Shown in pieces: positions 1 through 64,000 of a stretch of DNA of 64,000 nt. A program made the translations under genes and the position numbers. The notes under the pieces are model-generated. The model did not search any database. It saw only the letters and a list, made by a program, of their open reading frames with translations, and was not told where the DNA came from. Each line of letters starts with the position of its first letter. Within the stretch, counting starts at the first letter, position 1. The stretch is from Pontibacter litorisediminis (GTDB lineage Bacteria; Bacteroidota; Bacteroidia; Cytophagales; Hymenobacteraceae), in contig NZ_JARDUA010000003.1 of NCBI RefSeq assembly GCF_029360645.1, forward strand, positions 558,001 through 622,000, read 5' to 3'.

Positions 1-2
1 TG

Positions 3-338
3 GAGGAACTGGGGCTGGATGTGCTGGTCGTATGTGCTGGCTGGAAAGGCCAGTTTAACCTGGAGGACACGCTGTTTGCCGGGGCGCTGGTGGAGCGCCT
101 GCAGGATAGCTTCTCCTCGGAGCACGATAGCTCACTGGCCGCTTTACACCTGTACCAGACTGCTAAAACCGATATGGTTGGCTTCCTGCGCCAGTCATCG
201 CATGTGCGCCGGCTGGAGCACCTCGAGATTCACAAGGACATTGAGTTCTGCCTCCGCCACGATGTGTACAACGTGCTGCCCGTGTGGCGCCACGACAGGC
301 TGCTGGACCTGATGAAAGTTAGGGAGCTAGAGAGTTAG
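3..338 (+). CDS. comB: 2-phosphosulfolactate phosphatase family protein (ComB), 3' end only
   Basis: The reading frame is open from the window edge, so the start lies outside. The visible 111 residues match the C-terminal part of the ComB family, with the segment VLVVCAGWKGQFNLEDT followed by FAGALVE, and a tail rich in His and Arg ending ...IEFCLRHDVYNVLPVW. ComB removes phosphate from 2-phosphosulfolactate in archaeal coenzyme M synthesis. Many bacteria, including Bacteroidota, carry homologues whose role is less settled (sulfonate or sulfonolipid metabolism are possibilities, which is inference). The gene is followed within 16 bases by a long hairpin that probably ends its transcript. Confidence 0.85.
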   Translation, partial: EELGLDVLVVCAGWKGQFNLEDTLFAGALVERLQDSFSSEHDSSLAALHLYQTAKTDMVGFLRQSSHVRRLEHLEIHKDIEFCLRHDVYNVLPVWRHDRLLDLMKVRELES

Positions 339-353
339 AAAGTTTACCCTTAT

Positions 354-412
354 TAAGTATAAACGGGAGCGGCTGGCACTATGTAAGTGCCAGCCGCTCC
401 TGTTTATACTTA
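354..412. terminator. Long hairpin, probable bidirectional terminator
   Basis: Arms 354-380 and 386-412 are complementary over 27 bases with a single G-U wobble and a 5-base loop. It sits between comB on the plus strand and the MazG-like gene on the minus strand. The outer stem is built from AAGTATA and its complement TATACTT, the heptamer that recurs across the window. Confidence 0.8.
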
Positions 413-551
413 GTTTACATCGTCCTGCCGCAAGTTTTCAGCTTGCTTTCTGCCGAGCAGAAAAGGAAACATTCAGTGGCCTAGCTCCATTGTTCAGCCG
501 GAACTACAGCTGTCTTTTCGGCACCACTTTCTAACCTTCTAACTTTTAAAT

Positions 552-878
552 TTACTTCAGCTTCTCGTTTTGCTTGTGGCGGTCGCTGTCGCGGCTGGTC
601 TTTTTCTCCAGGTTTTTCTGCAGCGCCTCGGTCAGGTTCACACCGGTTTGGTTGGCCAGGCAGATCAGCACGAACAGCACGTCGGCCAGTTCATCGCCAA
701 GTTGCTTGCCCTCATCGCTTTTCTTAAACGACTGCTCCCCATACTGGCGGGAGATAATGCGGGCCACTTCGCCTACCTCCTCGGTAAGTATGGCCATGTT
801 CGTAAGCTCGTTAAAGTAACGCACCCCGTTTTCCTTGATCCACTTGTCTACAATGGCCTGTGCTTCGGCTATGGTCAT
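552..878 (-). CDS. MazG-like nucleotide pyrophosphohydrolase
   Basis: A 108-residue all-alpha NTP pyrophosphohydrolase of the MazG/RS21-C6 type. The metal-binding pattern is visible as E33-E34-x-x-E37 (LTEEVGEVAR) and E63-x-x-D66 (GDELADVLF). Family members hydrolyse (d)NTPs to monophosphate and pyrophosphate and are thought to clean damaged or non-canonical nucleotides from the pool. The lysine-rich tail after residue 90 looks disordered. It lies 2 bases downstream of dtd on the same strand, so the two are probably co-transcribed as a small quality-control operon. The exact substrate cannot be read from the sequence. Confidence 0.88.
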   Translation of the reverse strand: MTIAEAQAIVDKWIKENGVRYFNELTNMAILTEEVGEVARIISRQYGEQSFKKSDEGKQLGDELADVLFVLICLANQTGVNLTEALQKNLEKKTSRDSDRHKQNEKLK

Positions 879-880
879 GC

Positions 881-1339
881 TTAAAAAAGGTCTTTCTGTT
901 TGGTGTCCATCACAATTGTTACCGGGCCGTCGTTCAGCAGCGACACTTTCATATCGGCCCCAAACTCACCGGTCTGCACCGGCTTGCCCAGCGCCTCCTC
1001 CAGCAGCTGCACAAAGCGCTCATACAGCGGTATGGAAACAGCAGGCGGTGCGGCGTTGGTGTAGGAGGGGCGGTTGCCTTTCTTGGTGCTGGCGTAAAGC
1101 GTAAACTGGCTGATCACAAGCGCATCGCCGTCCACGTTTTTTATACTTAGGTTCATCTTTCCTTCGGCATCCGAGAAAATGCGCAGCGCGGCGACCTTGC
1201 CCGCCATCCACTTCAGGTCCTCTTCGGTGTCGTCGGCCGTGAAGCCGGCCAGCAGCAGCAGCCCTAAGCCGATCTCGCCTTTCGTCGTGCCATCAATTTG
1301 CACAGCAGCCTGAGTCACCCGCTGAATCACGATTCGCAT
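881..1339 (-). CDS. dtd: D-aminoacyl-tRNA deacylase
   Basis: This 152-residue protein hydrolyses D-aminoacyl-tRNAs (and Gly-tRNA-Ala), which protects translation from D-amino acids. The length is normal for the family. The two signature motifs are present: SQFTLYA at residues 77-83 and NDGPVTI at 136-142, where the Gly-cisPro (138-139) forms the chiral selectivity loop. The N-terminus MRIVIQRVTQA is canonical, which fixes the start. The MazG-like gene follows 2 bases downstream. A TACCTTTG element lies 25 bases upstream on the same strand. Confidence 0.95.
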   Translation of the reverse strand: MRIVIQRVTQAAVQIDGTTKGEIGLGLLLLAGFTADDTEEDLKWMAGKVAALRIFSDAEGKMNLSIKNVDGDALVISQFTLYASTKKGNRPSYTNAAPPAVSIPLYERFVQLLEEALGKPVQTGEFGADMKVSLLNDGPVTIVMDTKQKDLF

Positions 1340-1363
1340 AACATGCTATACTTTGGTTCAGGG

Positions 1364-3169: not shown

Positions 3170-3173
3170 GGGG

Positions 3174-4237: not shown

Positions 4238-6934
4238 ATGCTAAAACGCATTGTCTTTTTCTTTATCGGGTTTGTTATACTAGCCTCCCTGGCTTTCTAC
4301 GGTTTCAGCCGTTGGAAGGCCTCGCGGGAGAAAGTAGACCTATGGGCGCTGGTACCCGACGATGCGGCGCTGGTGGTGGAAACCAACCATCATCAGCGGT
4401 TGATGGAGCACCTGCGCGAAACGGAGCTGTGGCAGAGTTTCTCGGTGCTGCCCGCGGCCAGCAGCCTGGCCGACAATCTGGCTTACCTGGATAGCATTGC
4501 ACCTGGGAACCAGCGCCTCGACCGCTTCCTGAACGAGAAAAACATGCTTACCTCGCTGCACGTGGATGGCAAGTCCGATGTGAGGTATGTGTTTTACTTG
4601 CCCGTCAACTCTGTGGGCGAGCACCGCTTTCTGCGCAACCTTACCGAGAACATTAACAAGAGCACGGTGTTCGAGCAAAGCTCCCGCGATTACCAGGGCC
4701 ATTTGCTCACCGATATTACCAACACCCGCAACGGCAGCAGCTTCACCTACTTCACCTACCACAACAACATCATCCTAAGTGCCTCCCCTGCGTTGGTGGA
4801 GCAGATTGTACGGCGCGTAAGCCGCGGCACGCCCGTTTCGGTGGCGGCAGAGTTCAGCAACGTGGATTACCTGAGCCAACCCGATGTATATGCCAATGTG
4901 TTTGTGAACTACCGTGTGCTGCCGGAGCTTCTGGGGCTGTTTTTGCAGGAGGATGTGATGCCACAGGTGCGCTACCTCGCCTCACTGTGCCAGAACGGCA
5001 TGCTGGAGCTGAAGCTGGAGCGTAACAAGATTTTCCTGAACGGCTTCTCCCTTCCTGAAAAATTGAAGAATTCATTGCATGCTACCATGCAGCCGCAAAG
5101 GCCGCAGCCGCTGGCGATGAGAGCCTATCTGCCCAACAACACGGCCATGGTGCTGCACTTTGGCCTGCAAGAGGTAGCGCATTTGCGCCAGCCGCCGGGA
5201 ACTGCAGCAGCGGTAGTGGACAGCCTTGCCCGGAGTTTCAGCAATGAGGCGGCCCTGGTATACCTGGAGACAAACAGTATAAGCCAGAGCCCCGATAAGG
5301 TGGTGTATGCCCGTACGGAAAACCCTGCCCACACACAGCGCCTGCTCAGCAAGCTGGCCAGTGCGGAGGATGGAAAGCCGTATACGGAGAAGTATGGCAC
5401 CTACACCATACAGCTACTGAGGGTGCCGAAGCTGCCGGAGCAACTGCTGGGCCGCGTGTTTCAGGGGTTTGAGCAGAGCTATGTGGTGCAGGTGGATGAC
5501 TACCTGCTGCTGGCGGAGGAGATGGCGGCGCTGCGCCAGGTCCTGGATGACATAGCCGAGGGTAATGTGTGGAGTAAGTCGGCGGCGCAGAAAGCCTTTC
5601 AGGAGGAGACGCTGCAGGAGGCAAACTTTAGCCTGTACCTCAATAACGCAAACGCCTGGTACATCCTGAACCGCTACACCACCGAGGAGGAGCGGGAGGA
5701 GCTGCTGCAGAACGCTACCCTGATCAGGCGCTTTGCGCAGGTGGCGCTGCAGTTCGCGGCCGTGGAGGGCCGCTATTACACCAGCCTCGTTATCCGCAGG
5801 CCAGACCAGACCAAGGGTAACCGGCAGGATGGCTTTGAGGAAGAAGAAAGTATAACGTTAGATTCCCGGCTTGTGTCGCGCCCGTTCCCGATACAGAACG
5901 CGGTGGACAGGAGCCGCGAGCTGGCCGTGCAGGACTCTGCCCATGTGCTCATCAACATCAATGCCGGCGGCAGGCGCGGCTGGACGGACAGCCTGGGCAC
6001 CGCCCTCCGTAGCGATGTGAAGCAGATAGAGTACGGCCCTGACAAAAAGCTCCGTTACCTGTACATCACCGAAAGCCGCATCCACGCCGTGAACAACCAG
6101 GGGCAGCCACTGGAGAATTTCCCATTTAACCTGCCGGACACTGTAAAGCTGCAGCACCTGGCCGTTTTTGACTATGAGAAAGACGGCAACTACCGCCTGT
6201 TGGTGGATGATGACCTGGGCAACCTGTATGTATACAACATGCGTGGGGCGGCCATACAAGGCTGGAACCCGCGCCGCATGGATTACCGCCTCTCGGCAGA
6301 GCCGCAGCACCTGCGGGTAGGCGGCCGCGACGTAATTCTGGTGTCGCTGGAGAATGGCTACATCTATGCCCTTAACCGCAATGGCGACACTTATCCCGGT
6401 TTCCCGATCAACCTGAAGGTTCCCCTTACCTCTGGCCTAACGGCGAAAGTAGGGGCCGACCTGCGGCGCACGGAGGTGACGGCGGTAACCCGGTACGGGA
6501 ATGTGGTAACCTTTAACCTGCAGGGCAGGGTAGTAAATCAGCAGCAGCTAAAACGGCCTAGCAAGCAAGCCATGTTTGAGATGGTGCCGGAGAGCAGCAA
6601 CGGCCGCTCTTATGTTATTGTGCGGCAGGAGCGGGGGAATGTGGCTATCATAGATCAGGACCTGAAAGAGCTGTTTGAGAAGAGCTACGTTACCTCGGCC
6701 CCTAAAGTCGTGCAGTACTTCCGCTTTGGCGGAGCCAACAAAATTTATGCGATCACCGAGACAGGCCCTGGCAAAACCTACCTCTACGACGCCAACGGGA
6801 GGCTCATCGGCGGCCGCTCTTTGGAGAACAGCAATCCCGTGACCATCTACTACAACGAGACCGCCAACGACTACACGCTATACTTCACCTCGGGCAGCCA
6901 GCTGAAGAAGATGCGGTTTAGCGTGGGGGAGTAG
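4238..6934 (+). CDS. Large membrane-anchored protein with DUF3352-like region and propeller-like C-terminus
   Basis: An 898-residue protein with one N-terminal transmembrane segment (about residues 4-24: IVFFFIGFVILASLAFYGF), so the rest is probably periplasmic. Residues about 35-540 resemble DUF3352-type proteins (VPDDAALVVETNHH, then repeats of substrate-binding-like folds). Residues about 590-898 contain repeated strand patterns such as YNMRGAAIQGWNPRRM, LNRNGDTYPGFPIN and DANGRLIGGRSL, typical of PQQ/WD-like beta-propellers. The architecture is common in Bacteroidota but no function is established. It is transcribed alone and followed by 211 bases without a gene. Confidence 0.7.
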   Translation: MLKRIVFFFIGFVILASLAFYGFSRWKASREKVDLWALVPDDAALVVETNHHQRLMEHLRETELWQSFSVLPAASSLADNLAYLDSIAPGNQRLDRFLNEKNMLTSLHVDGKSDVRYVFYLPVNSVGEHRFLRNLTENINKSTVFEQSSRDYQGHLLTDITNTRNGSSFTYFTYHNNIILSASPALVEQIVRRVSRGTPVSVAAEFSNVDYLSQPDVYANVFVNYRVLPELLGLFLQEDVMPQVRYLASLCQNGMLELKLERNKIFLNGFSLPEKLKNSLHATMQPQRPQPLAMRAYLPNNTAMVLHFGLQEVAHLRQPPGTAAAVVDSLARSFSNEAALVYLETNSISQSPDKVVYARTENPAHTQRLLSKLASAEDGKPYTEKYGTYTIQLLRVPKLPEQLLGRVFQGFEQSYVVQVDDYLLLAEEMAALRQVLDDIAEGNVWSKSAAQKAFQEETLQEANFSLYLNNANAWYILNRYTTEEEREELLQNATLIRRFAQVALQFAAVEGRYYTSLVIRRPDQTKGNRQDGFEEEESITLDSRLVSRPFPIQNAVDRSRELAVQDSAHVLININAGGRRGWTDSLGTALRSDVKQIEYGPDKKLRYLYITESRIHAVNNQGQPLENFPFNLPDTVKLQHLAVFDYEKDGNYRLLVDDDLGNLYVYNMRGAAIQGWNPRRMDYRLSAEPQHLRVGGRDVILVSLENGYIYALNRNGDTYPGFPINLKVPLTSGLTAKVGADLRRTEVTAVTRYGNVVTFNLQGRVVNQQQLKRPSKQAMFEMVPESSNGRSYVIVRQERGNVAIIDQDLKELFEKSYVTSAPKVVQYFRFGGANKIYAITETGPGKTYLYDANGRLIGGRSLENSNPVTIYYNETANDYTLYFTSGSQLKKMRFSVGE

Positions 6935-7145
6935 TGCTTTCTTCTTCGACAAAGGAGTTTTTTGACACAGGACAAAAGACGCTGCCTGTATATCGAATCA
7001 CGACATACGTAGCGCTACCTCTGAATATGAACTTCGTGACAAAGGCCACTGCGACAAAAGCGCACTTAACAGAAGCAGTTTAGAAAGCTTGCTTATTTAC
7101 CTCTTGGCCTTTGCCAGGTAGTCTTTTGTCAAATCGTCAAATAAA

Positions 7146-8276
7146 TCAAAAGCTCCTGAACCAGCCTTTCCTGTAAAAGAAGTATAGTTGCAGCAGGATG
7201 AGTATCGCCATCAGGGCGATCAGGATCGGATAGGAGTTTGGCTGGTAAAGTTCGGGCATACTGTGCGGAAAAACCTTGCCTGTCTCGGGGTCCTCGTGCG
7301 CAAAGTTCATCCCATACAGGCCTACGATAAAGCTCAGCGGAATAAAGATGCTGGAGATGATGGTGAGCACTTTCATAATCTCATTCATGCGGTTGCTCAC
7401 CGTGGACATGTACAGCTCCACCAGGCTCGAGGCCATTTCGCGATGGTTCTCTACCAGGTCGATCAGCTGCACGGCATGGTCGTAGGCATCACGGAAGTAT
7501 ACCTTCAGGTTTTCGGGAATGGTGTCCTCGTCCATGCGCAGGAGCTCGTTCATCAGGTCGCGGGCGGGCCACGTGATGCGGCGCAGCTTTATGAGCTCAC
7601 TCTTCAGGTCCAGGATCTGGCTTAGCGTGGCCTTGTTTGGCTGGCGCAGTACCTCCTGCTCCAGGTCTTCGATGTAGATACCAATGTCAGCTATTACCGG
7701 GAAGTAGTAATCCAGCACCACATCCAGTATAGCATAGGCAATATAGGTGGCTGGCCGCTGCCGGATAACACCTTTGCCGCCTCTTATGCGCTCCCTTAGC
7801 GGGTCCAGGCAGTCGCCGTAGTCGCTTTGCAGGCTGAGCACGTAGTTAGGGCCCGTAAACAGTGAGAGCTGGATGTCGTCCAGCGTCCTGAACTCAGGGG
7901 ACCAACGCAGCATGCGCGTAATCATGAACAGGCGGTTCCCATCAAACTCCTCCACCTTTGGCCGTTGGTAGTCGTTGACGACGTCTTCCATCTGCAGGGG
8001 GTGCAGTTTGAAATCAACGATCAGCTGCTCCAGCATGGTCTGGTCGGCGTACCCTCTGATGTCGATCCAATGCCGTGCATCCGGCCTGGCGTTTACCCTC
8101 TGCAATAACTCCTGGTACGTCTTCAGTTCCCGCTCCTCGAACATCCCCTCGTTAAACGACATCAGGAAAAAACGCGGGGCATAGGCCTCGGCAGGTATAA
8201 GCAGCGAGCCAGGCTTTATGCCTGCCTTGCGTTCCAGGATTTTATTGCGGGCACGGTTGTGTTTGCGTTTCGACAT
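7146..8276 (-). CDS. corA: Magnesium/cobalt transporter CorA
   Basis: A 376-residue CorA channel that admits Mg2+ (and Co2+/Ni2+) across the inner membrane as a pentamer. The defining GMN signature is seen as YGMNF at the end of the first transmembrane helix (IISSIFIPLSFIVGLYGMNF). The second helix YPILIALMAILILLQLYFFY lies near the C-terminus, ending in the usual basic tail (YRKGWFRSF). The N-terminal half is the cytoplasmic funnel domain. A very basic N-terminal 15 residues (KRKHNRARNKILERK) precedes it. The yigZ gene lies 25 bases upstream on the same strand, so the two could be co-transcribed. Confidence 0.95.
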   Translation of the reverse strand: MSKRKHNRARNKILERKAGIKPGSLLIPAEAYAPRFFLMSFNEGMFEERELKTYQELLQRVNARPDARHWIDIRGYADQTMLEQLIVDFKLHPLQMEDVVNDYQRPKVEEFDGNRLFMITRMLRWSPEFRTLDDIQLSLFTGPNYVLSLQSDYGDCLDPLRERIRGGKGVIRQRPATYIAYAILDVVLDYYFPVIADIGIYIEDLEQEVLRQPNKATLSQILDLKSELIKLRRITWPARDLMNELLRMDEDTIPENLKVYFRDAYDHAVQLIDLVENHREMASSLVELYMSTVSNRMNEIMKVLTIISSIFIPLSFIVGLYGMNFAHEDPETGKVFPHSMPELYQPNSYPILIALMAILILLQLYFFYRKGWFRSF

Positions 8277-8301
8277 AGGGAGATTTTGGGAGTTAGAGGG
8301 T

Positions 8302-8922
8302 TTAAGAGTGAGTGAGGGGATCGTTTTTTACAGAAACTTCAACGCCCTCCATGTCCTGCAGTTTCGTGGTAACCTCCTCCTGCAGCTTGAGGCGCACTTC
8401 CAGCGTCAGGCGGCAGTCTAGCTCAAACTGCTGGTCGCGCACAGCCAGGTCGTACTCTTTCACCAGGCTCATCACATCGTTCATCTGCGGGTAGGCATAA
8501 TGCGCCTGCAGCAGCACCGTTTCGTGTTTCTCCACCACAGTGGCACTGGCCAGCGCCTCGGCCGTGGATACCTTGTACGCATTTATCAGGCCGCTTACGC
8601 CCAGTTTGGTGCCCCCAAAATAACGCACCACCACCACCAGCACATTGCTCAGCTCAGCCGAGCGGATCTGGCCAAGGATAGGGTCGCCGGCGGAGTGGTT
8701 GGGCTCGCCGTCGTCGTTGGCGCGGTAGCGGGCTTGGTCGGCCCCCAGAATGTAGGCGTAGCAGTGGTGGCGGGCGTCGTAGTACTTCTTGCGAAGCTCG
8801 GTTAGCACCTCCTTCACCTCCTCCTCGGAGTAAACCGGGTAGGCCAGCGCAATAAACTTGCTGCCTTTCTCTTTGTACAGGCCCTCGGCGGGTTCGGCTA
8901 TGGTGCGGTAGGTATCCTCCAT
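8302..8922 (-). CDS. yigZ: YigZ/IMPACT family protein
   Basis: About 206 residues with the UPF0029 (IMPACT) N-terminal domain: YDARHHCYAYILG, NDDGEPNHSAGDPIL and VVVVRYFGGTKLGVSGL are all hallmark motifs. A C-terminal DUF1949 domain (about 140-206) follows. YigZ proteins are thought to interact with ribosomes or translation factors, by analogy to IMPACT/YIH1, but the bacterial role is not firmly known. I chose the ATG at 8922 (MEDTYRTIAEPAEG) because family members start there. An in-frame ATG at 8943 would add seven residues. It precedes corA on the same strand. Confidence 0.9.
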   Translation of the reverse strand: MEDTYRTIAEPAEGLYKEKGSKFIALAYPVYSEEEVKEVLTELRKKYYDARHHCYAYILGADQARYRANDDGEPNHSAGDPILGQIRSAELSNVLVVVVRYFGGTKLGVSGLINAYKVSTAEALASATVVEKHETVLLQAHYAYPQMNDVMSLVKEYDLAVRDQQFELDCRLTLEVRLKLQEEVTTKLQDMEGVEVSVKNDPLTHS

Positions 8923-9005
8923 GGTGGCGTGTGCTGGTTGCATTCCTGCAAGTTAACCAAAGGCGGGCAAGGGTAAAAATTATACCGATCCTCTCTTAAA
9001 TGACG

Positions 9006-9013
9006 TACATTTG
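9006..9013 (+). promoter_or_regulatory. -7 element inside the 5' end of the ketoisomerase reading frame
   Basis: TACATTTG matches TAnnTTTG. It lies just after the upstream ATG at 9000, which suggests that transcription begins near 9020 and that this ATG is not used. Confidence 0.5.
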
Positions 9014-9035
9014 CAGCAGCACCAAAGTATACGTT

Positions 9036-9449
9036 TTGCCAGCCACACCCTACCTGATTCCTTTGCACCGTGTGGGTAGCCCCGAGATAGGCTACATCAC
9101 CAGCACGCAGTTTGCCGAGAACGTGCCCTTTGAGATAAAGCGGGTGTTCTGGACCCAGGACACACCGCCGGGGGTGGAGCGCGGGCACCATGCCAACATG
9201 GCCACCGAGGAGGTGCTGATTGCCCTGAGCGGAAGTATAAAAGTGCTGACCGACACCGGCCGCCAAAAGCAGGAGTTCGTGCTTACGCACCCGCAGCAGG
9301 GCCTCTACATACCGGCCATGTGCTGGACCGAGTTGCGCTTTTCCGAAGGCGCCACCGCCCTCTGCCTCACCTCCACCGACTTCAGCGAAGCCGACTATAT
9401 CCGCGACTACGGCCGTTTTCTGCAGTTGGCCTCGCACATAGAGCTATAA
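9036..9449 (+). CDS. FdtA/QdtA-like sugar 3,4-ketoisomerase (cupin)
   Basis: A WxcM/FdtA-type cupin that would interconvert dTDP-4-keto-6-deoxy-hexose 3,4-keto sugars on the way to 3-amino-3,6-dideoxy sugars of the cell surface. Family motifs seen are LIPLHRVGSPEIGYITSTQF, then FEIKRVFWTQDTPPGVERG, then HHANMATEEVLIALSGSIKV, with the catalytic His pair region GHHA. I place the start at TTG 9036 because a promoter -7 element (9006-9013) overlaps the longer version that starts at ATG 9000. The longer version would add 12 residues. The DegT aminotransferase 122 bases downstream is the expected next enzyme, so the two form a pathway pair. Confidence 0.82.
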   Translation: MPATPYLIPLHRVGSPEIGYITSTQFAENVPFEIKRVFWTQDTPPGVERGHHANMATEEVLIALSGSIKVLTDTGRQKQEFVLTHPQQGLYIPAMCWTELRFSEGATALCLTSTDFSEADYIRDYGRFLQLASHIEL

Positions 9450-9571
9450 AAGTATAACTGTTAATCGGACCAGGGTCTTCAGGATCGTAAGGATTTGCAG
9501 CAATAAAATTCATACATTCATAACTCTATAACTCTCAAACGCTCTAACTCCTAAACTCCCTTCACTCTCCC

Positions 9572-10684
9572 ATGCAGCCATTGCCATACTTCCAGTTCAG
9601 AGATTTTCCGGTGGGCCTGGAGCCGCAGGTGCAGCGGGCCTTGCTGGAGGCGGTGGCTAGTAAGCAGTATGTGCTGGGGCCGCAGGTGCGGGCTTTTGAG
9701 CAGGAGTTTGCCGCTTACCTGGGAGCAGGTGCCGCGGTAGGCGTGGGCAATGGCTACGATGCCCTGGTAATAGCGCTGAAAGCTTTGGGCGTGGGAGCGG
9801 GGGATGAGGTGGTGCTGCCGGTGCATACGTTTATCGCCACCGTTAATGCGGTGCTGCAGGTAGGGGCAAAGCCTGTGCTGGCCGAGCCGGACAAGTATAC
9901 TTATAACCTCACAGCTGCCACGGCCGCGCGGCATATTACCTCCAAGACCAAAGCCATACTTGCCGTGCACCTTTACGGGCAGGTTTGCCAGATGGGCGGG
10001 CTGCAGCAGCTGGCGCAAGCGCAAGGTATAAAGCTGCTGGAGGACGCTGCCCAGGCACATGGCGCCAAGTATAAAAGTAGCTACGCAGGAAGTATGGGTG
10101 ATGCCGCTGCCTTCAGTTTTTACCCCACCAAAAATCTGGGAGCCTTAGGCGATGCCGGGGCTGTGGTAACCGCTGATGCGGCTGTGGAGGCCTTTGCCAG
10201 GAAGTATCGGAATTATGGCGAGAGCCAGAAGTATAAATCAGAACAGATAGGTATAAACTCGCGGCTGGATGAGCTGCAGGCGGCGGCGCTGCGGGTAAAG
10301 CTGCAGCACCTGGAGGCACTGAACGCCGAGCGGCGGCGCCTGGCGCAAGTATACCTGCAGGAGCTGCAAAGCACCGGCGACCTTGTCCTTCCGGTCACGG
10401 CTCCCGGCTGCGGGCATGTCTACCACATTTTTAACATCCGCACCAGGTATAGAAACGAACTGCAGGCCTTCCTGCAAGAGCAGGGGGTTGGCACGGCTGT
10501 GCACTACCCGGTGCCGGTGCACCTGCAGCCCGCTTATACTTTCCTGGGCCACAAGGCCGGCGATTTCCCGGTAGCCGAAGAGCTGGCCGGCACGAGCCTT
10601 AGCCTTCCCCTCTTCCCCGGCCTCACCGAAGCAGAGCAGCAACGGGTGGTAGAGCAGGTAAGGTTATTTTTTAGGAAGGGGTAG
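9572..10684 (+). CDS. DegT/DnrJ/EryC1 family PLP-dependent sugar aminotransferase
   Basis: A 370-residue aminotransferase that would convert a dTDP-3-keto-6-deoxyhexose to the 3-amino sugar (FdtB-like role, inferred from the neighbour). The PLP Lys is K187 in FSFYPTKNLGALGDAGA. The acidic residue in LLEDAAQAHGA (D158) contacts the pyridine ring, and the substrate loop NSRLDELQAAAL is typical. Length and domain order are complete. It follows the FdtA-like ketoisomerase, and a family 2 glycosyltransferase gene lies 714 bases further on, separated by a repeat-bearing gap. Together they suggest synthesis of a 3-acylamino-dideoxy sugar for surface polysaccharide. Confidence 0.92.
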   Translation: MQPLPYFQFRDFPVGLEPQVQRALLEAVASKQYVLGPQVRAFEQEFAAYLGAGAAVGVGNGYDALVIALKALGVGAGDEVVLPVHTFIATVNAVLQVGAKPVLAEPDKYTYNLTAATAARHITSKTKAILAVHLYGQVCQMGGLQQLAQAQGIKLLEDAAQAHGAKYKSSYAGSMGDAAAFSFYPTKNLGALGDAGAVVTADAAVEAFARKYRNYGESQKYKSEQIGINSRLDELQAAALRVKLQHLEALNAERRRLAQVYLQELQSTGDLVLPVTAPGCGHVYHIFNIRTRYRNELQAFLQEQGVGTAVHYPVPVHLQPAYTFLGHKAGDFPVAEELAGTSLSLPLFPGLTEAEQQRVVEQVRLFFRKG

Positions 10685-11398
10685 TTCTTTATTGTTGATT
10701 GCTGATAGTTGGCTTGCAGCATTGCAGCACCGGACTAACCACTCCTGCCGCTCCTTATTTAAGGAGGTGAGCCTGCAACTGCTTTGGCTAAAGTATAAGC
10801 GCTGTAACTCTGGCTATTCAGATTAACCCACCCCAACCCCTCCTTAGCAAAGGGAGCCTGTTATTACTGGTGCTGAAGTATATATTTCATAGGTTCTGCT
10901 TTAACACCCCTATAGTCCCCTCAAGGGGACAGTCGTAATAGCAGTGGCTATCGAACAAGAACCCAATCTTTGGGTTGAGCGCCTTCTAGATTTCCGGTGC
11001 CCGCAAGGGCATTGCGACAGCAAAGGAAATGTAGACAGCGCGATGCCCGAGGACGAGGCCTCCCGGCCTGGAGGAAGCCAAAGCAGGAGGTGAAACGAGG
11101 CGATAGTAAGTCTGGAGGAAGAACAGCAGCTAGAAAAGATAGCTTGGTTCCAACTGCACAAAGCAGCGGCTAAGAGAGACACAAGCGGACGCTTGCGCTA
11201 GAGAAGTCTGAAAACTTGCACCAGGAAAGGTATAGCTTACACAGATTGGTATGTCCGGAACAGCGACAGCTATGGAAATATAAAAGAGAGACGGGCTGCA
11301 AATCCCGCCAGCGGTGCGGCAGGAAAGTATAAGCGGTGCAAAACCTGCAGCCGCTGCCACGCCAGCACAGCGCAACACAAAATTCCTTATCTTCGCTC
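10685..11398. other. Gene-free stretch holding a dispersed repeat
   Basis: Both strands were scanned and no convincing coding frame was seen. The stretch carries low-complexity fragments (a CCCCAACCCCTCC run near 10830), the structured dispersed repeat described separately, and copies of AAGTATA. The last 12 bases contain TATCTTCG (11388-11395), a possible variant -7 element, directly before the glycosyltransferase ATG. Confidence 0.7.
10905..11200. repeat. Dispersed non-coding repeat, copy A
   Basis: Matches a second copy near 24492-24882 in the same block order: a palindrome TCCCCTCAAGGGGA, then GGCTATCGAAC followed by CTTTGGGTTGAGCGCC, TTTCCGGTGC, CAGCGCGATGCCC, a CAGCTAG..AGCTTG segment, and finally ACAAGCGGACGCTTGCGCTA. 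Several blocks can fold: AACCCAATCTTTGGGTT makes a 7-base-pair stem and CAAGCGGACGCTTG a 5-base-pair stem. No reading frame is conserved between the copies, which points to RNA or DNA structure and away from protein. The element family is not known to me. Confidence 0.75.
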
Positions 11399-12340
11399 AT
11401 GCCCCAGCCACTCGTTTCTGTCATCTGCCTGTGCTACAACCACGAGCGCTTCCTGCGCGAGGCCTTGGACTCTGTCTTAGCGCAGACTTACCCCAACCTG
11501 GAGGTAATCATCGTGGACGACTGCAGCACCGATAACAGTGTGGGCATCATTCAGGAGTATGTGCAGCGACATCCGCAGCTTAAGTTCATCAGCACGGGCC
11601 AAAACCTGGGCAATACCAAAGCCTTTAACATGGGGTGGCGCGCCAGTAAGGGGGAGTTTATACTTGACTTTGCCACCGACGACGTGTTGCTGCCTGAACG
11701 GGTGGCGCAGCAGGTGGCTCAGTTTCAGCGCCTGGGCCCGGAGTTTGGCGTGGTCTATTCGGATGCCGAGTACATCTCTGATGATTCAGAACACCTGTAC
11801 TACCATAGCCAGAAGTATAAAGCAGCCCCGGACGGTGACGTGTTTGCAGAGGTATTGGGGCGCTACTTCATCTGCCCACCTACCATGCTCATCCGGCGCA
11901 AGGTGTTTGAGGCGTTGAGCGGATATGATGAGCGCCTGGCCTATGAGGACTTCGATTTTTGGGTGCGCTCCGCCCGCCAGTATAAGTATGGGTATCTGCC
12001 TGCAGTAACCACTAAACGCCGCCTGCACAACCGCTCCCTTTCCAGCGGATGGTACCGGAAAGGCAACCAATTGCTGGCTTCTACGGTTGTAGTGTGTAAG
12101 AGAGCCGCAGAACTGGTGCAAACTCCGCAAGAGCGAGAGGCACTGGCCAGGCGGCTGAAGTATGAGGCGCGGCATGCCTTCCTCACTGGTAATTTTACAG
12201 AGGCAGAGCAGTTGCTGCAGCTACTAAAGCAAACTACAGGCACCCCTCTTTTGTACCGGTTTCTCCGGCAGCTAAACAGGCATAAAATTGAGCTCGGTTT
12301 CCTGCGCAATCTGTACCGCAGGCTTCGGGGCCAACATTAA
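11399..12340 (+). CDS. Family 2 glycosyltransferase
   Basis: A 313-residue GT-A fold glycosyltransferase, probably at the inner membrane face, building a surface glycan. The N-terminus VSVICLCYNHERFLREALDS is the classic GT2 nucleotide-binding strand. VDDCSTDNS and the metal-binding FATDDVLLPE motif (DxD equivalent) follow, and the acceptor part contains YEDFDFWVRSARQ. I chose ATG 11399 (MPQPLVSVIC) over an upstream in-frame ATG at 11336, whose extra 21 residues have no family match. A TATCTTCG element ends 3 bases before the chosen start, so the mRNA may be nearly leaderless. It may act with the amino-sugar genes upstream. Confidence 0.92.
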   Translation: MPQPLVSVICLCYNHERFLREALDSVLAQTYPNLEVIIVDDCSTDNSVGIIQEYVQRHPQLKFISTGQNLGNTKAFNMGWRASKGEFILDFATDDVLLPERVAQQVAQFQRLGPEFGVVYSDAEYISDDSEHLYYHSQKYKAAPDGDVFAEVLGRYFICPPTMLIRRKVFEALSGYDERLAYEDFDFWVRSARQYKYGYLPAVTTKRRLHNRSLSSGWYRKGNQLLASTVVVCKRAAELVQTPQEREALARRLKYEARHAFLTGNFTEAEQLLQLLKQTTGTPLLYRFLRQLNRHKIELGFLRNLYRRLRGQH

Positions 12341-12500
12341 ATAGCACTGTTTTGTTTACTTACTCTCTTTTTATCCGTAAGCTAAAGTTAAACCAGCTTT
12401 TAGTGGAGTATCTGATAGCCTAACCCTTTAAATCACTCAGAATGGGTGTTTTTATGGGTAATTTGTTGCCTGTTACGGGTTACTATCAAGATTTAATAAC

Positions 12501-12508
12501 TATATTTG
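12501..12508 (+). promoter_or_regulatory. -7 element of the acyl-ACP desaturase gene
   Basis: TATATTTG, 24 bases before the ATG at 12532. It lies inside a longer in-frame extension that begins at 12442, and so argues for the shorter protein. Confidence 0.6.
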
Positions 12509-12531
12509 GAATTCAATTAAACAACAGCACC

Positions 12532-13512
12532 ATGATTACACCAGCGCTCGCCTCACGTGGGGAAGTTATAAAATGGATGGAAGATTTTGTGGGAGAAAAA
12601 CTCTCCGAGTTTCTTAAGTCAGTGGAGGATAGCTGGCAACCTGCAGACCTTTTACCGGACGCTACCATGGAAAGCTTCTTTGACGAAGTGAAAGAATTGC
12701 GTGAGCGTGCCCGCGACCTGAGCTACGACCTGCTGGCTGTGCTGGTAGGCGATACGATCACGGAAGAGGCGCTGCCTACGTATGAGAGCTGGCTTATGAC
12801 AATAGAAGGTTTGCCCAAAGACCCGCAAGGCCCTTGGATGAAGTGGAACCGCAGCTGGACGGCCGAGGAGAACCGCCACGGCGATGCACTGAACCGCTAT
12901 CTGTACCTGACTGGCCGTATTAACATGCGCGAAATGGAGGCCTCCACGCAGTACTTGATCGCGGATGGCTTTGACCTGCAGACCGATGACGACCCGTACC
13001 GCTCGTTTGTGTATACTTCGTTTCAGGAGACAGCCACGAACATCTCGCACCGCCGCGTAGCGCAGATCGCCAAGAAACAGGGCGACACGCAGCTGGCCAA
13101 GCTGTGCGGCCACGTAGCTGCCGATGAGGCCCGCCATGCCAAGGCGTATAAATCTTTTGTAAGCAAGATTTTTGAGGCGGACCCGAACGAGATGATGCTG
13201 GCGTTTGAGGACATGATGCGCAAGAAGATCGTGATGCCGGCCCACTACATGCGCGAGTTGGGCGTGGACCTGGGTAAGACCTTCGGCCACTTTACCGATG
13301 CCGCCCAGCGTATCGGCGTATACACCTCAGCCGACTATACCGACATCCTGGAAGGCCTGATAAAAGAATGGAAGATCGAGGCCCTGACCGGCCTGGACGA
13401 AGCCGGTGAGCGTGCCCGCGATTACGTGATGGCCCTGCCAGCCCGCCTGAAGCGCGTGGCAGAGCGCATGAAAGTGCCGGAACTAGAGTATAAGTTCCGC
13501 TGGATAGCTTAA
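12532..13512 (+). CDS. Acyl-[acyl-carrier-protein] desaturase (soluble di-iron)
   Basis: A 326-residue ferritin-like fatty acid desaturase type 2 that inserts a double bond into acyl-ACP using O2 and ferredoxin. The di-iron ligand motifs are E112-E113-N-R-H116 and D198-E199-A-R-H202, with a further Glu at E166 in SFQETATNISHRR. All ligands are present. I chose ATG 12532 because a promoter -7 element lies at 12501-12508 and the 30 extra upstream residues do not look like the family. A UGAGUCCC-type hairpin terminator follows at 13536. Confidence 0.93.
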   Translation: MITPALASRGEVIKWMEDFVGEKLSEFLKSVEDSWQPADLLPDATMESFFDEVKELRERARDLSYDLLAVLVGDTITEEALPTYESWLMTIEGLPKDPQGPWMKWNRSWTAEENRHGDALNRYLYLTGRINMREMEASTQYLIADGFDLQTDDDPYRSFVYTSFQETATNISHRRVAQIAKKQGDTQLAKLCGHVAADEARHAKAYKSFVSKIFEADPNEMMLAFEDMMRKKIVMPAHYMRELGVDLGKTFGHFTDAAQRIGVYTSADYTDILEGLIKEWKIEALTGLDEAGERARDYVMALPARLKRVAERMKVPELEYKFRWIA

Positions 13513-13535
13513 GCAGCAGATACAAGAAGATAAAG

Positions 13536-13570
13536 AAAGAGGTGAGTCCCTGATAGGGCTCACCTCTTTT
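13536..13570 (+). terminator. Rho-independent terminator after the desaturase
   Basis: Arms AAAGAGGTGAGTCCC (13536-13550) and GGGCTCACCTCTTTT (13556-13570) pair with one bulged base, and a T run ends the hairpin. It may also serve the convergent DUF427 gene that ends at 13582. Confidence 0.8.
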
Positions 13571-13581
13571 GCTTTCAAGGC

Positions 13582-13863
13582 TTACTTCTGAACTTTTACG
13601 TCTTTCCAGAAGGCGATGTAACCTCTTATCTTTTCGGCTGCGTCTTTTGGGTTAGGGTAGTACCAGGCAGCGTCCTGCTGTACCTCCCCATTCACTTTTA
13701 CATGGTAATAGGCGGCTTCGCCTTTCCAGGAGCAGGTGGTGTGGGTACGGCTTTCCTCCAGGTAGCTTTTGTCAACAGTGTTTGGCGGAAAATATTGGTT
13801 GCCTTCTACTACAATGGTAGTGTCGCATTCTGCAATTACAACATCATTAAATATCGCTTTCAT
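13582..13863 (-). CDS. DUF427 domain protein
   Basis: A 93-residue protein covering the whole DUF427 domain: IAECDTTIVVEGNQYFPP, then TTCSWKGEAAYYHV and WYYPNPKDAAEKIRGYIAFW, which are the usual family signatures. The domain is widespread in soil bacteria and has no established biochemical role. The gene stands alone, convergent with the desaturase gene. Confidence 0.9.
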   Translation of the reverse strand: MKAIFNDVVIAECDTTIVVEGNQYFPPNTVDKSYLEESRTHTTCSWKGEAAYYHVKVNGEVQQDAAWYYPNPKDAAEKIRGYIAFWKDVKVQK

Positions 13864-51775: not shown

Positions 51776-51795
51776 GCAAGTATAAAAGTATACTT

Positions 51796-58513: not shown

Positions 58514-60325
58514 TTACGCTACTTCTTCTTTATTACGCATGCGGTTACGCTCGTTCTCGTCTAAGTAGATCTTGCGCATACGCAGGCTCTTTGGCGTTAC
58601 CTCCAGGTACTCATCCTTCTGGATGTATTCCATGGCCTCCTCCAGCGAGAAGTTTTTAGCCGGAGCGATCTTGGTGTTATCATCAGAGCCGGAAGCACGC
58701 ATGTTCGTCAGCTTCTTACCTTTCTGGATGTTCACCGTGATATCGTTCTGGCGGTTGTGCTCACCAATTACCTGACCCATGTACACATCTACACCCGGAT
58801 CAACGAAGAATACACCTCTGTCCTGCAGTTTATCGATAGAGTAAGCAGTTCCAGGGCCTGTCTCCATAGAGATGATAGAACCGTTGTTACGTCCAGGGAT
58901 AGCGCCTTTGTACGGCTCGTAGCTCTGGAAACGGTGGTTCATAATGGCCTCGCCAGCTGTTGCAGTCAAAACGTTGTTACGCAGGCCGATCAGGCCACGC
59001 GCCGGAATGTTGAACTCCAGGTGCTGCAGGTCTCCCTTAGGCTCCATGATCGTCAGTTCACCTTTACGCTGCGTTACCAGCTCGATTACCTTACCGGCTG
59101 TTTCTTCCGGAACGTCCACCACCAGGTGCTCGATTGGCTCGTGGCGCTGGCCGTCAACTTCTTTATAGATTACCTGTGGCTGACCTACCTGAAGCTCGTA
59201 GCCCTCACGGCGCATCGTTTCGATAAGTACAGACAAGTGCAGGATACCACGACCAAATACCAGGAAAGTATCTTCACGGTCGGTCTCCTGTACGCGCAGG
59301 GCCAGGTTTTTCTCAGTCTCTTTGAACAGACGATCGCGCAGGTGACGCGATGTTACGAACTTACCCTCTTTACCGAAGAAAGGAGAGTTGTTGATCGTAA
59401 ACAACATGTTCATCGTTGGCTCATCGATAGAGATACGAGTCAGTGCCTCAGGGTTCTCCGCATCAGCAATGGTATCGCCAATGTCAAAGCCTTCGATACC
59501 TGTTACAGCGCAAATCTCGCCGGCTGATACTTCCTGAACTGTTTTCTTGCCAAGGCCTTCAAATACCTGCAATTCTTTGATACGACCTTTCTTGATAGAA
59601 CCGTCTGCTTTCATCAAGCTGATAGGCATACCTTCTTTCAATGTTCCACGGTGAACGCGACCGATCGCGATACGACCTACGAAAGAAGAGTAGTCAAGCG
59701 ACGTGATCTGCATCTGTGGAGAGCCTTCACGGAACGGAGCGGCAGGGATCACATCAATGATAGCATCCAATAAAGGCGTGATGTTGTCAGTTGGCTGCGT
59801 CCAGTCAGTGCTCATCCAGCCCTGCTTGGAAGAACCGTACAGCGTGGTGAAGTCCAGCTGGTCTTCTGTCGCGTCCAGGTTAAACATCAGGTCAAACACC
59901 TGCTCGTGCACCTCGTCCGGACGGCAGTTTTCCTTGTCTACTTTGTTTACCACCACGATTGGCTTCAGGCCAAGCTGGATGGCTTTACCCAGTACGAAAC
60001 GGGTCTGTGGCATGGCGCCCTCGAAGGCATCCACCAGCAGGAGCACACCGTCGGCCATCTTCAGCACGCGCTCTACCTCACCGCCGAAGTCGGCGTGGCC
60101 AGGGGTGTCGATGATGTTGATCTTTACGTCTTTGTAGCGAACCGACACGTTCTTAGAAACGATCGTGATGCCACGCTCGCGCTCCAGGTCGTTGTTGTCC
60201 AGAATAAGGTCGTCGAACTGCTGGTGCTCAGCAAACAGCTTAGAGGCGTGGATGATCTTGTCCACGAGCGTGGTCTTGCCGTGGTCTACGTGTGCGATGA
60301 TCGCAATATTTCGAATATTTTGCAT
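58514..60325 (-). CDS. typA: Translational GTPase TypA/BipA
   Basis: A 603-residue ribosome-binding GTPase, involved in 50S assembly and stress adaptation. G1 AHVDHGKTTL, G3 DTPGHADFGGEVER and G4 NKVDKENCRPDE are intact, followed by the EF-G-like domains and the BipA-specific C-terminal domain (GPGTAYSIDKLQDRGVFFVD, ...ASGSDDNTKIAPAKNFSLEE). The length is normal. A TACTTTTG -7 element lies 20 bases upstream. Confidence 0.97.
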   Translation of the reverse strand: MQNIRNIAIIAHVDHGKTTLVDKIIHASKLFAEHQQFDDLILDNNDLERERGITIVSKNVSVRYKDVKINIIDTPGHADFGGEVERVLKMADGVLLLVDAFEGAMPQTRFVLGKAIQLGLKPIVVVNKVDKENCRPDEVHEQVFDLMFNLDATEDQLDFTTLYGSSKQGWMSTDWTQPTDNITPLLDAIIDVIPAAPFREGSPQMQITSLDYSSFVGRIAIGRVHRGTLKEGMPISLMKADGSIKKGRIKELQVFEGLGKKTVQEVSAGEICAVTGIEGFDIGDTIADAENPEALTRISIDEPTMNMLFTINNSPFFGKEGKFVTSRHLRDRLFKETEKNLALRVQETDREDTFLVFGRGILHLSVLIETMRREGYELQVGQPQVIYKEVDGQRHEPIEHLVVDVPEETAGKVIELVTQRKGELTIMEPKGDLQHLEFNIPARGLIGLRNNVLTATAGEAIMNHRFQSYEPYKGAIPGRNNGSIISMETGPGTAYSIDKLQDRGVFFVDPGVDVYMGQVIGEHNRQNDITVNIQKGKKLTNMRASGSDDNTKIAPAKNFSLEEAMEYIQKDEYLEVTPKSLRMRKIYLDENERNRMRNKEEVA

Positions 60326-61737: not shown

Positions 61738-62091
61738 ATGCATATACACACATTATACAGATACAGCATGAGCCTGCTGTGGGCGGGTTTGGCCGGTTGC
61801 ACCTCCCTGAGCGAGGGACAGGAGCGCTTGCCGCCCCCCGTGCCGGCCAACGAGCGGGTAACGCTCCGGCAAAACCCCAATGCTACCTTATTAGAGCGTA
61901 TGGATAACCAGGCCAGCGAAATCAACCGGAAGCGCAACATCGAGCAGTTCGACAGCAACAGCCCTGCCATGACGCCAACCACGCTGCGCCCGCTGCTGCT
62001 CCCGCTGGCTCCCATCGACTCGGCCAGGCATTTCCTGTATTGGCCGATGCAGCGGGAAGTGCAGCCGCTTCCACCAGCCAACAAGCCATAA
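61738..62091 (+). CDS. Small putative lipoprotein
   Basis: A 117-residue protein. MHIHTLYRYSMSLLWAGLAGC gives a short signal with lipobox LAGC (Cys21), followed by a Pro-rich, probably unstructured body (RLPPPVPANERVTLRQNP, ...LLPLAPIDSARHFLYWP). An earlier in-frame start at 61675 adds 21 residues and is less likely. Its stop codon (62089-62091) lies inside the terminator stem. Confidence 0.6.
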   Translation: MHIHTLYRYSMSLLWAGLAGCTSLSEGQERLPPPVPANERVTLRQNPNATLLERMDNQASEINRKRNIEQFDSNSPAMTPTTLRPLLLPLAPIDSARHFLYWPMQREVQPLPPANKP

Positions 62092-62132
62092 AAGCGGCCC
62101 AAAGTATGTGGGTATACTTTGGGCCGCTTTTA
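62089..62132. terminator. 19-base-pair perfect terminator stem, bidirectional
   Basis: TAAAAGCGGCCCAAAGTAT (62089-62107) pairs with 62114-62132 without mismatch. It begins at the stop codon of the small lipoprotein gene and is convergently shared with the small gene at 62148. AAAGTAT/ATACTTT forms the loop-proximal part. Confidence 0.85.
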
Positions 62133-62147
62133 TGGAATGCCGGAGCC

Positions 62148-62378
62148 TTATTTTTTCTTCTTCTTTTTATCGCTCACCTCCTCCGGCTGCTCCTCGTCGC
62201 TCAGGTGCAGTTCGTCCGGCTCCAGGTCCATGTATACTTCGTTTTCGGGTGGCGTATTCTGCGACTCACGGTCCGCTTCGCGAGGGGCGGGTTTTTTCGT
62301 TACCTTGTTCTCATGGTCCTTCTTGCCCAAATTCTCCCCATCGTCTCTTCTCGACTTCAGGCTATCATTATGTCTCAT
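62148..62378 (-). CDS. Small, highly charged hypothetical protein
   Basis: A 76-residue protein made almost only of polar residues (SLKSRRDDGENLGKKDHENK, DLEPDELHLSDEEQPEEVSD) ending in six lysines. It is probably intrinsically disordered. The composition and the terminator behind the stop suggest a real gene, but there is no recognisable domain. Confidence 0.55.
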   Translation of the reverse strand: MRHNDSLKSRRDDGENLGKKDHENKVTKKPAPREADRESQNTPPENEVYMDLEPDELHLSDEEQPEEVSDKKKKKK

Positions 62379-62494
62379 ATATAAGTATACTTTAGGTGAT
62401 GCTCTGTCTTACGGAAAAGCAAGTGCAAAGTCATGGGCTGTTCATGATTTTGTGAGATCGGCAGCCGGTGGCGGTTCATTCCGCAACCTATTCG

Positions 62495-62502
62495 TATATT
62501 TG
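62495..62502 (+). promoter_or_regulatory. -7 element of metG
   Basis: TATATTTG, 17 bases before the metG ATG. Confidence 0.6.
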
Positions 62503-62519
62503 TTCTTTAAATAGATAAG

Positions 62520-64000
62520 ATGACAAACAACCCCAAAAGATATACTGTAACGGCTGCGCTGCCGTATGCCAATGGCCCCGTGCACATTGGCCACCTGGCG
62601 GGTGTATACTTGCCTGCTGATATTTATGTGCGTTACCTGCGCCTGCAGAACCGTGATGTGAAGTTTATCTGTGGCTCCGACGAGCACGGGGTGCCGATCA
62701 CGATCCGCGCCAAGAAAGAAGGCATCACGCCGCAGCAGGCCGTGGACAAGTATCATGAGCTGATCAAAAAGTCGTTTGCTGACTTTAACATCTCCTTCGA
62801 CATTTACGACCGCACCTCCTCTGCCATACACGCCGAGACGGCCGGAGGTTTCTTTAAGAAGCTGTACGAGGACGGCAAGTTCATCGAGCAGACCACGCAG
62901 CAGTACTACGACGAGAAGGCACAGCAGTTCCTGGCAGACCGCTACATTGTGGGCACCTGCCCTAAGTGCGGAAACGAGAACGCCTACGGCGACCAGTGCG
63001 AAAGCTGCGGTACCTCCCTGAACGCCACCGACCTCATCAACCCCAAAAGTACGCTGAGCGGTGCTGTGCCGGTGATGCGCGAAACCAAGCACTGGTACCT
63101 GCCCCTGAACGAGTATGAGCCCTGGCTGCGCGAGTGGATCGTGGAGGGCCACAAAGGCGATTGGAAGCCGAATGTGTACGGCCAGTGCAAATCCTGGATA
63201 GACCAGGGGCTGCAGCCCCGCGCCGTAACCCGCGACCTGGATTGGGGCGTGCCGGTGCCGGTAGAGGGAGCCGAAGGCAAGGTGCTGTACGTATGGTTCG
63301 ATGCGCCGATCGGCTATATCTCGGCCACCAAAGCGCTGACAGACGATTGGGAGAAGTACTGGAAAGACGAGGAGACGAAGCTGGTGCACTTCATCGGAAA
63401 GGACAACATCGTGTTCCACTGCATCATTTTCCCGAGCATGCTCAAGGCGCACGGCGATTATATCCTGCCGGATAACGTGCCGGCCAATGAGTTCCTGAAC
63501 CTGGAGGGCGATAAGATCTCTACCTCCCGTAACTGGGCGGTGTGGCTGCACGAGTACCTGGAGGAATTCCCGGGTAAGGGCGACGTGCTGCGCTATGTGT
63601 TGGCTGCCAACGCCCCTGAGACAAAGGACAACGACTTTACCTGGAAAGACTATCAGGCCCGCAATAACAACGAGCTGCTGGCTATCCTGGGCAACTTCAT
63701 TAACCGCGCCGTGGTGCTCACGCAGAAGTATTACGAGGGTGCCGTGCCTGCCCGTGGCGAGCTGACGGAGTATGATAAAGTGGTGCTGGAAGACCTGCAG
63801 GGAATGCCGATGGTGATCGCTGCGCATATCGAGCGGTACAAGTTCCGCGATGCCCTGGCTGAGCTGATGAACCTGGCGCGCCTGGGCAACAAGTACCTGG
63901 CCGACACAGAGCCGTGGAAGCTGATCAAGACAGACGCCGAGCGCGTGAAAACGATCATGAACATTGCGCTGCAGATTTCCGGTAGCCTGGCCATTCTGAT
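62520..64000 (+). CDS. metG: Methionyl-tRNA synthetase, 5' part (runs off the window)
   Basis: Open from ATG 62520 to the window end, 493 residues visible. The class I signature HIGH is at residues 22-25 ([11 protein letters not shown]), the zinc knuckle is [18 protein letters not shown], and the KMSKS-type loop appears as KISTS in [15 protein letters not shown]. The anticodon-binding helical domain begins before the edge ([20 protein letters not shown]). It charges tRNA-Met. Confidence 0.97.

Follow-up and report, generated by a model that had tools for sequence, protein, structure and literature searches.

Short words iterated throughout the genome are known from few bacterial lineages. Here we analyse such a word, the heptamer AAGTATA (complement TATACTT), in a stretch of 64,000 bases (53.4% GC) of Pontibacter litorisediminis, called the window below (contig NZ_JARDUA010000003.1, positions 558,001 to 622,000), and follow it through related genomes. 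The closest described counterparts are the DNA uptake sequences (DUS) of the Neisseriaceae, whose dialects follow phylogeny, which have a three-base core in common, lie in permissive regions and are missing from some members of the family (PMC3630211). Uptake signal sequences (USS) of the Pasteurellaceae are dense, non-palindromic and come in two related versions (PMC3630211). Chi, the word of the AddAB and RecBCD enzymes, is non-palindromic too, has 5-8 bases and occurs chromosome-wide, the leading-strand skew seen in E. coli not being universal (PMC5959072). Highly iterated palindrome 1 (HIP1) of cyanobacteria, tied to known methyltransferases, is very dense and lineage-variable, with other words in its place in some species (PMC4390886).

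AAGTATA, with any base except T preferred after it (AAGTATAV), belongs to a group of related words (AAGTATA, AGGTATA, AACTATA and, by alignment, GGGTAGG) that are very frequent on the chromosome and much rarer on plasmids. It resembles DUS in having thousands of copies, phylogeny-following dialects, a short core common to all of these and some relatives without it, in accumulating at permissive sites and in being atypical in mobile DNA (PMC3630211, PMC7371117). It differs from them in its length (7-8 bases as against 10-12), in that inverted terminator pairs are not general, and in that Pontibacter has neither a type IV pilus ATPase match nor a known receptor. Likewise it shares density, lack of palindromy and related versions with USS, but the sequence is a different one and the pilus-based machine was not found. 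With Chi it has its non-palindromic form, size and distribution in common, and an enzyme of the AddAB type is present in Pontibacter; however, the word is AT-rich and far more over-used, and AddB does not track its dialects. It is as dense and lineage-variable as HIP1 without being a palindrome and, unlike the FtsK-orienting polar sequences (KOPS) and architecture-imparting sequences (AIMS), it shows no strand polarity along replichores.

Over-use of AAGTATA in the window and the genome

Counted on both strands, AAGTATA/TATACTT is the commonest 7-mer of the window, its 58 AAGTATA and 49 TATACTT copies (107 in total) spanning the entire stretch with a widest gap of 3948 bp (13012-16960). Markov simulations of order 1, 2, 3 and 4 gave chance levels of 4.2, 7.7, 18.4 and 51.6 copies, respectively, and the 105 distinct rearrangements of its letters, itself among them, occur 8.6 times on average. 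The source genome (4.99 Mb, 17 contigs) contains 3163 + 3022 = 6185 copies, compared with 165 + 163 = 328 for the reversed motif. The over-use far above chance reported in the initial annotation is thus real, and it survived a codon-aware null, applied in reduced form to sampled stretches: 59 copies in the coding DNA of the window face 5.9 expected from codon usage or 9.0 after shuffling of synonymous codons within genes, and 733 copies in a P. kalidii coding sample face 84 or 113. Codon usage was therefore rejected as the cause.

These results support the assignment of AAGTATA to the class of highly iterated motifs that includes HIP1, Chi and uptake sequences, as the initial annotation had put it; a HIP-like palindrome is unsupported, the word being non-palindromic. 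Pontibacter, the genus named there, is correct as well. What had been overlooked are the dialects, the depletion on plasmids and the many Pontibacter species that are not rich in AAGTATA.

Dialects of the word in Pontibacter

Across a phylum sample of 296 genomes only the genome of the window was strongly enriched (ratio 18.9), all others lying at or below about 1.6 by eye. In a family sample of 204 genomes, 23 of the 50 Pontibacter genomes (one per species) had more than 800 AAGTATA copies per Mb, with ratios of up to 38.5 in G455, matched to P. flavimaris; none of the 154 genomes from the other five genera exceeded the control more than about 2.5-fold, again by eye. AAGTATA-poor genomes were sampled at 45-60 kb each (nine genomes) or 20 kb (a tenth). 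Over-use of AGGTATA(G) was first seen in sampled DNA of G458 and G444, and that of AACTATA in seven genomes, three pairs of which were pooled while G484 stood alone. The advance prediction that AACTATA would be high in those seven only held for all seven, one of the other 43 (G488) being intermediate.

Genome-wide, AAGTATA-rich genomes (23 of 50) hold 4,114-11,818 copies of their word, AGGTATA-rich genomes (12 of 50) 5,748-9,303 (controls 226-357; at most 3,132 in the remaining 38) and AACTATA-rich genomes (7 of 50) 6,094-13,168; these are called AAG, AGG and AAC genomes below. G452, G454 and G484 are rich in both AACTATA and AAGTATA, and 11 of the 50 are rich in none of the three words. Outside the seven, AACTATA reached 3,531 copies in G488 (control 849), 1,969 in G456 (control 914, a twofold excess) and no more than 1,655 elsewhere. 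Relative to an order-2 model, over-use in sampled DNA amounted to 13.0 for AAGTATA (P. kalidii), 9.0 for AGGTATA (210 kb from 12 AGG genomes) and 21.2 for AACTATA (81 kb from 4 AAC genomes).

All three words have TATA at positions 4-7, and base 8 is T in only 4% (AAG), 4% (AGG) and 1% (AAC) of the sites. Among one-mismatch variants, that with G in place of A at position 7 ranks first in AAG (5.0, next 2.8) and AGG (2.7, next 2.4) genomes and is one of the most enriched in AAC genomes. Both the avoidance of T at base 8 and the position-7 variants would be expected if a reader tolerates some variation. In the sister genus g2, 14 of 120 genomes contain at least 2,000 copies of GGGTAGG (up to 6,650; most relatives have some hundreds), a word that by alignment appears related to those of Pontibacter, with only TA in common. 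Its core GGGTAG is not concentrated between genes, unlike the Pontibacter words: 21 of 152 sites in the g2 genome G307 (L157-L159) are intergenic, in 16% of the DNA.

Samples of the motif-poor genomes G453, G466, G475, G476 and G486 (matched to P. ummariensis) contained no clear replacement word, and in motif-poor G456 both AAGTATA and AACTATA were weakly over-represented. Some motif-poor species may have dialects of their own, namely RGGTATA in G480 (L105-L106), TATATA-rich words in G474 (L094-L096) and AGGTAGA in G472 (L099-L100), and CCGGA palindromes are candidate over-used words in G447 and G468. The palindrome TCCGGA is over-used in Hymenobacteraceae that are not AAGTATA-rich, namely G468 (L049), Adhaeribacter (L132, L134) and G304 (L145-L147).

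Placement of the word and depletion on plasmids

The anatomy of the word was studied in 800 kb of P. kalidii XAAS-72 (G459), taken as 40 stretches with genes called by a simple custom script, where 1386 copies of AAGTATA face 106 expected (order 2). It occurs at 1.10/kb in genes and at 4.58/kb between them, with a peak of 6.2/kb between convergent genes, and at 10.1/kb in the first 20 bases past stop codons; a TAA stop could donate the first two letters of the word, which would account for the density after stops. The flanks are weakly constrained (position -1 A 44%; position +7 A 61%, T only 4%; position +8 A 45%), and 392 copies point in the same direction as the gene, 341 in the opposite one. 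Density climbs with the GC content of a stretch (r = 0.63, 40 stretches), so that the word, AT-rich itself, is scarce in AT-rich stretches. For 191 of the 614 intergenic sites whose flanks were complete, the sample contains a similar context at another place, as it does for 19 of 760 coding or edge sites; given these fractions and the little flank conservation, copying of a longer repeat was rejected as the cause for most sites.

P. kalidii has dispersed intergenic repeats around the palindrome GACAGGTCGCGACCTGTC (L057:16477, L060:6043, L066:16687 and others). With both strands viewed, the 24 bases after GACAGGTCGCGACCTGTC contained AAGTATA in 11 of 34 views from AAG genomes, AGGTATA in 0 of 26 from AGG genomes and AACTATA in 1 of 2 from AAC genomes. 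A short tandem array of overlapping AAGTATA copies with a 6-bp period lies at L060:6438-6500, as if expanded by slippage.

With strands assigned by GC skew, 712 copies lie on the leading and 674 on the lagging strand (p = 0.32), so that the replication-strand polarity for which the initial annotation proposed a test finds no support here. This result also bears on the possibility that AAGTATA is the site of a sequence-specific core chromosome protein acting in organisation, segregation, repair or silencing, outside recombination and uptake. Such a role would fit a sharp 7-mer that is chromosomal and depleted on plasmids, and the direct tandem copies found between genes at spacings of 6-8, 11-12 and 18 bp could reflect cooperative binding; the absence of a replication-strand pattern, the uneven spacing (gaps between sites are slightly clumped), the location of some tandem copies within dispersed repeats and the lack of a candidate protein argue against it, and we regard it as somewhat unlikely.

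Plasmids carry far fewer copies than the chromosomal density predicts. Identity of plasmid stretches with named records assigns G459, G440 and G441 to P. kalidii XAAS-72, P. actiniarum and P. akesuensis, respectively. The complete P. kalidii plasmid pls1 has 20 copies, where genome density would predict 128 and its own composition 14. The P. actiniarum (G440) plasmid, sampled over 140 of its 204 kb, has 63 compared with 115, and the P. akesuensis (G441) plasmid, over 20 of 116 kb, 3 compared with 25 at genome density and 1.8 from its own composition. Depletion was thus observed on three plasmids, two of them partial; PLSDB typing lists pls1 and the P. actiniarum plasmid as mobilizable. A pure mutational bias, in which replication or repair errors produce the word in the absence of any reader, would act inside and between genes and on both strands, as is the case for AAGTATA. 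Against it stand pls1, which is near its own random level (20 vs 14), though plasmids may be too recent to show the bias, and the fact that the sites are more conserved than their flanks (see below), making this explanation very unlikely.

Conservation and history of the dialects

Site conservation between close species, suggested earlier as a check on the motif, was compared for one species pair, P. chinhatensis (matched to G450) and P. mucosus (matched to G464). Conserved sites being viewed from both sides, 140 of 167 AAGTATA site views (84%) are kept, whereas flank identity predicts 58%; with 80 permuted 7-mers the corresponding figures are 524 of 791 (66%) and 61%. The motif withstands this check. 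At genus scale most motif sites turn over in the AddB, BipA and ComEC alignments. These three genes contain 31 sites with AAGTATA in at least three AAG genomes, at which the following counts, uncorrected for protein constraint, were obtained. In AGG genomes AGGTATA accounts for 3.6 site-equivalents, AAGTATA for 1.8 and the remaining one-mismatch words combined for 2.0; in AAC genomes AACTATA accounts for 3.9, AAGTATA for 4.4 and other one-mismatch words for 3.6.

One branch of the AddB tree of all 50 genomes sets the 12 AGG genomes apart from the rest, and another does so for the 7 AAC genomes. A ComEC tree of 28 genomes (8 loci returned by the search plus 20 chosen genomes) agrees with this grouping for the 5 of 12 AGG and the 7 of 7 AAC genomes that it contains, and the BipA tree does not match it. 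Because the groupings of AddB and ComEC agree and that of BipA differs, the AGG and AAC dialects are probably clade traits and BipA the discordant gene, as judged from two- and three-gene comparisons. Whichever tree is used, the AAG-rich and motif-poor states must have changed several times (AAG: 7 on AddB, 9 on BipA). BipA (58514-60325 in the window; loci L004-L053) groups G444, G482 and G484 together with 100/100 support, and it is likely that bipA was transferred within the genus. A co-transfer of AddB with the dialect had been considered, as AddB placed G444 with the AGG and G484 with the AACTATA genomes and BipA did not; it was dropped when ComEC gave the AddB grouping.

Candidate readers of the word

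AAGTATA might be a Chi site, that is, a word that regulates the AddAB helicase-nuclease in break repair and also protects self DNA. An AddB-type protein is encoded in 50 of 50 Pontibacter genomes, and all 20 long loci have an AddA-type gene next to that of AddB. The Chi sites of B. subtilis, S. aureus and H. influenzae are likewise reported to have no strand skew, and related species can have Chi sites with a common end and a divergent one without any change in the known contact residues (PMC5959072). In B. subtilis AddB the contact residues are F68, F210, R132 and E129 (PMC4824097); they could not be mapped, since a profile search of Pontibacter AddB against solved structures gave no match. 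By analogy, the N-terminal part of the protein would be the scanner.

We compared AddB in three N-terminal stretches and a fourth one, 168 residues in total. Here 6 positions distinguish G470 (AGG) from G488 (AAG) and 3 distinguish motif-poor G486 from G440 (AAG), as compared with 9 between G440 and G441, both of the AAG type. When a strict criterion is applied, only three of 969 positions (508, 821 and 840), none of them N-terminal, separate the 12 AGG from 20 AAG-only genomes, and 25 positions, 20 of which follow position 550, separate the 7 AAC genomes. The N-terminal region does not track the dialect, so that a Chi read by AddB is disfavoured. This evidence is strong but not final because known RecC contact residues are conserved between two species with different Chi (PMC5959072). 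Moreover, known Chi sites are mostly GC-rich and that of E. coli is 4- to 8-fold over-represented (PMC5959072), and the apparent co-transfer of AddB and dialect disappeared with the ComEC control. Taken together, a Chi function is quite unlikely. Between addA and addB we observed a 144-residue gene with a glyoxalase fold (PF00903; L202:6779-7210), matched in 19 of 20 long loci.

Alternatively, a methyltransferase or a mismatch-repair bias might make and keep the word, as proposed for HIP1, which is of the same density class and whose alternate words are tied to methyltransferases (PMC4390886). Apart from AAGTATA being non-palindromic, gene content does not fit: 19 of 50 genomes, including 13 that are rich in a word of the set, gave no match to the PF01555 methyltransferase family, and PF07669, scored as presence of the family rather than of single orthologues, occurs in 47 of 50 genomes including motif-poor ones and not in motif-rich G460, and is thus non-discriminating. 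By presence, these two families, the only ones compared, do not match the distribution of the motif. In P. kalidii no one-mismatch neighbour of AAGTATA was depleted as a source beyond 0.7 of expectation. We consider this origin unlikely.

A possible self-DNA signal

By analogy with the described systems, the word may work like a DNA uptake sequence, that is, as a self-DNA signal in homologous exchange, a reading to which we give tentative preference. It is suggested by the combination of thousands of copies, clade dialects, a shared core, some change in place, relics, relatives poor in the motif, scarcity in mobile DNA and lack of polarity, which is best matched by the DUS dialects of the Neisseriaceae. 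A sequence-specific reader would favour DNA bearing the word, whereby word-bearing alleles would replace word-less ones through molecular drive plus selection, and the word would accumulate where it is cheap: between genes, in permissive codons and after TAA stops. Altered specificity of the reader would create a new dialect, to which some of the existing sites would be converted where they stand while others would persist as relics of the previous dialect, and loss of the reader would let the word decay. The putative reader would not be a type IV pilus system. Hymenobacteraceae might then have a pilus-independent self-DNA recognition, with species dialects, a reader of tunable specificity, repeated loss and plasmid exclusion, an independently evolved counterpart of DUS and USS in Bacteroidota; this, too, we put forward as a possibility short of an even chance.

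Of the hallmarks of DUS and USS, we found a copy number far above chance, dialects with a core (clades for AGG and AAC, several changes for AAG and the motif-poor state) and depletion on mobile elements, and did not find abundant inverted terminator pairs or the pilus uptake machine. A search for a T2SSE/PilB-type ATPase, which gave a match in 14 of 14 named control genomes, returned no full protein in the 50 Pontibacter genomes, only short partial matches, 3 of 50 being barely above the cut-off; the pilin itself was not searched. The known pilus machine thus seems to be absent from the genus, and since its ATPase was not found we did not file the motif as a DUS.

This absence is the first of several points that weigh against a self-DNA signal. 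A ComEC-type gene is present in 50 of 50 genomes, but it is open in motif-poor species too and interrupted in the motif-bearing G460 and G479. At least 191 of the 614 intergenic sites lie in dispersed repeats, inflating the intergenic density, and consecutive intergenic sites at most 60 bp apart are mostly direct (123) rather than in either inverted arrangement (42 and 26). The P. actiniarum plasmid exceeds its own composition threefold (63 vs 21). The in-place counts include the effect of protein constraint, and the reverse direction is weaker, with AAGTATA in AAG genomes at 2.4 vs 3.2 for 16 AGG sites and at 1.7 vs 2.6 for 19 AAC sites. Finally, the position-7 variant is not the top one in AAC genomes (AACTATG 3.3; GACTATA 3.8, TACTATA 3.2), and the open-access literature searched contained nothing relevant on competence in Bacteroidetes.

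The comEC stop codons, at G460:C1:2771217-2771876 and G479:C76:160505-161305, may be real or assembly errors.

The same literature, with subscription papers and preprints outside its scope, contained nothing on a genome-wide over-represented motif of Pontibacter or on uptake sequences of Bacteroidetes; among the matches listed, none dealt by title with AAGTATA as a bacterial genome motif or with Chi words of Bacteroidetes. Dialects are best known from pilus-based uptake, and a dense, dialect-forming word in a branch that gave no full match to the pilus ATPase suggests a novel sequence-reading protein. The 50 Pontibacter genomes, which include three dialects, genomes that mix two of them and several motif-poor species, are a natural experiment for finding this reader by gene content, and also suit the study of the spread of such words and of the way in which they restrict gene flow. 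As probes for dialect-specific binding we name AAGTATAA, AGGTATAG and AACTATAG.

Individual sites in the window

The following sites stand out among the copies in the window:

25879-27147, minus strand: waaA-like gene (Kdo transferase, PF04413), its coding strand bearing nine AAGTATA
9893-9902, unstranded: full palindrome AAGTATACTT
28102-28111, unstranded: full palindrome AAGTATACTT
51786-51795, unstranded: full palindrome AAGTATACTT, 8 bp past another AAGTATA located just after a stop codon
62383-62392, unstranded: fourth copy of the full palindrome AAGTATACTT
49107-49122, unstranded: 16-mer AAGTATAGCTATACTT, folding no better than shuffles (z -0.35)
28578-28591, plus strand: two AAGTATA in direct tandem, spacing 7
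352-414, unstranded: long perfect intergenic hairpin (-52 kcal/mol), AAGTATA and TATACTT in the stem, with the motif in both arms
45612-45671, unstranded: hairpin (-46 kcal/mol), AAGTATA at the stem base and another AAGTATA reaching into the loop
62086-62135, unstranded: hairpin (-40 kcal/mol), AAGTATG/TATACTT in the stem

The nine TATACTT copies in waaA described in the initial annotation are present, two of them one base further on (26373 and 27133, not 26372 and 27132); the ninth, at 27133, falls in the first codons after a TTG start, the choice of which is uncertain. The 16-mer at 49107 is where it had been placed, as are the three palindromes, whose total rises to four with the overlooked copy at 62383. 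Scans of the window for Rfam families (gathering threshold) and tRNAs gave no matches. Terminator stems holding the motif do exist as single cases, the hairpins at 352, 45612 and 62086 folding far better than shuffles (z -11.6, -11.8 and -8.2, respectively), but close inverted pairs are no commoner than direct ones, and a hairpin function as the general role of AAGTATA was rejected and would be confined to such cases.

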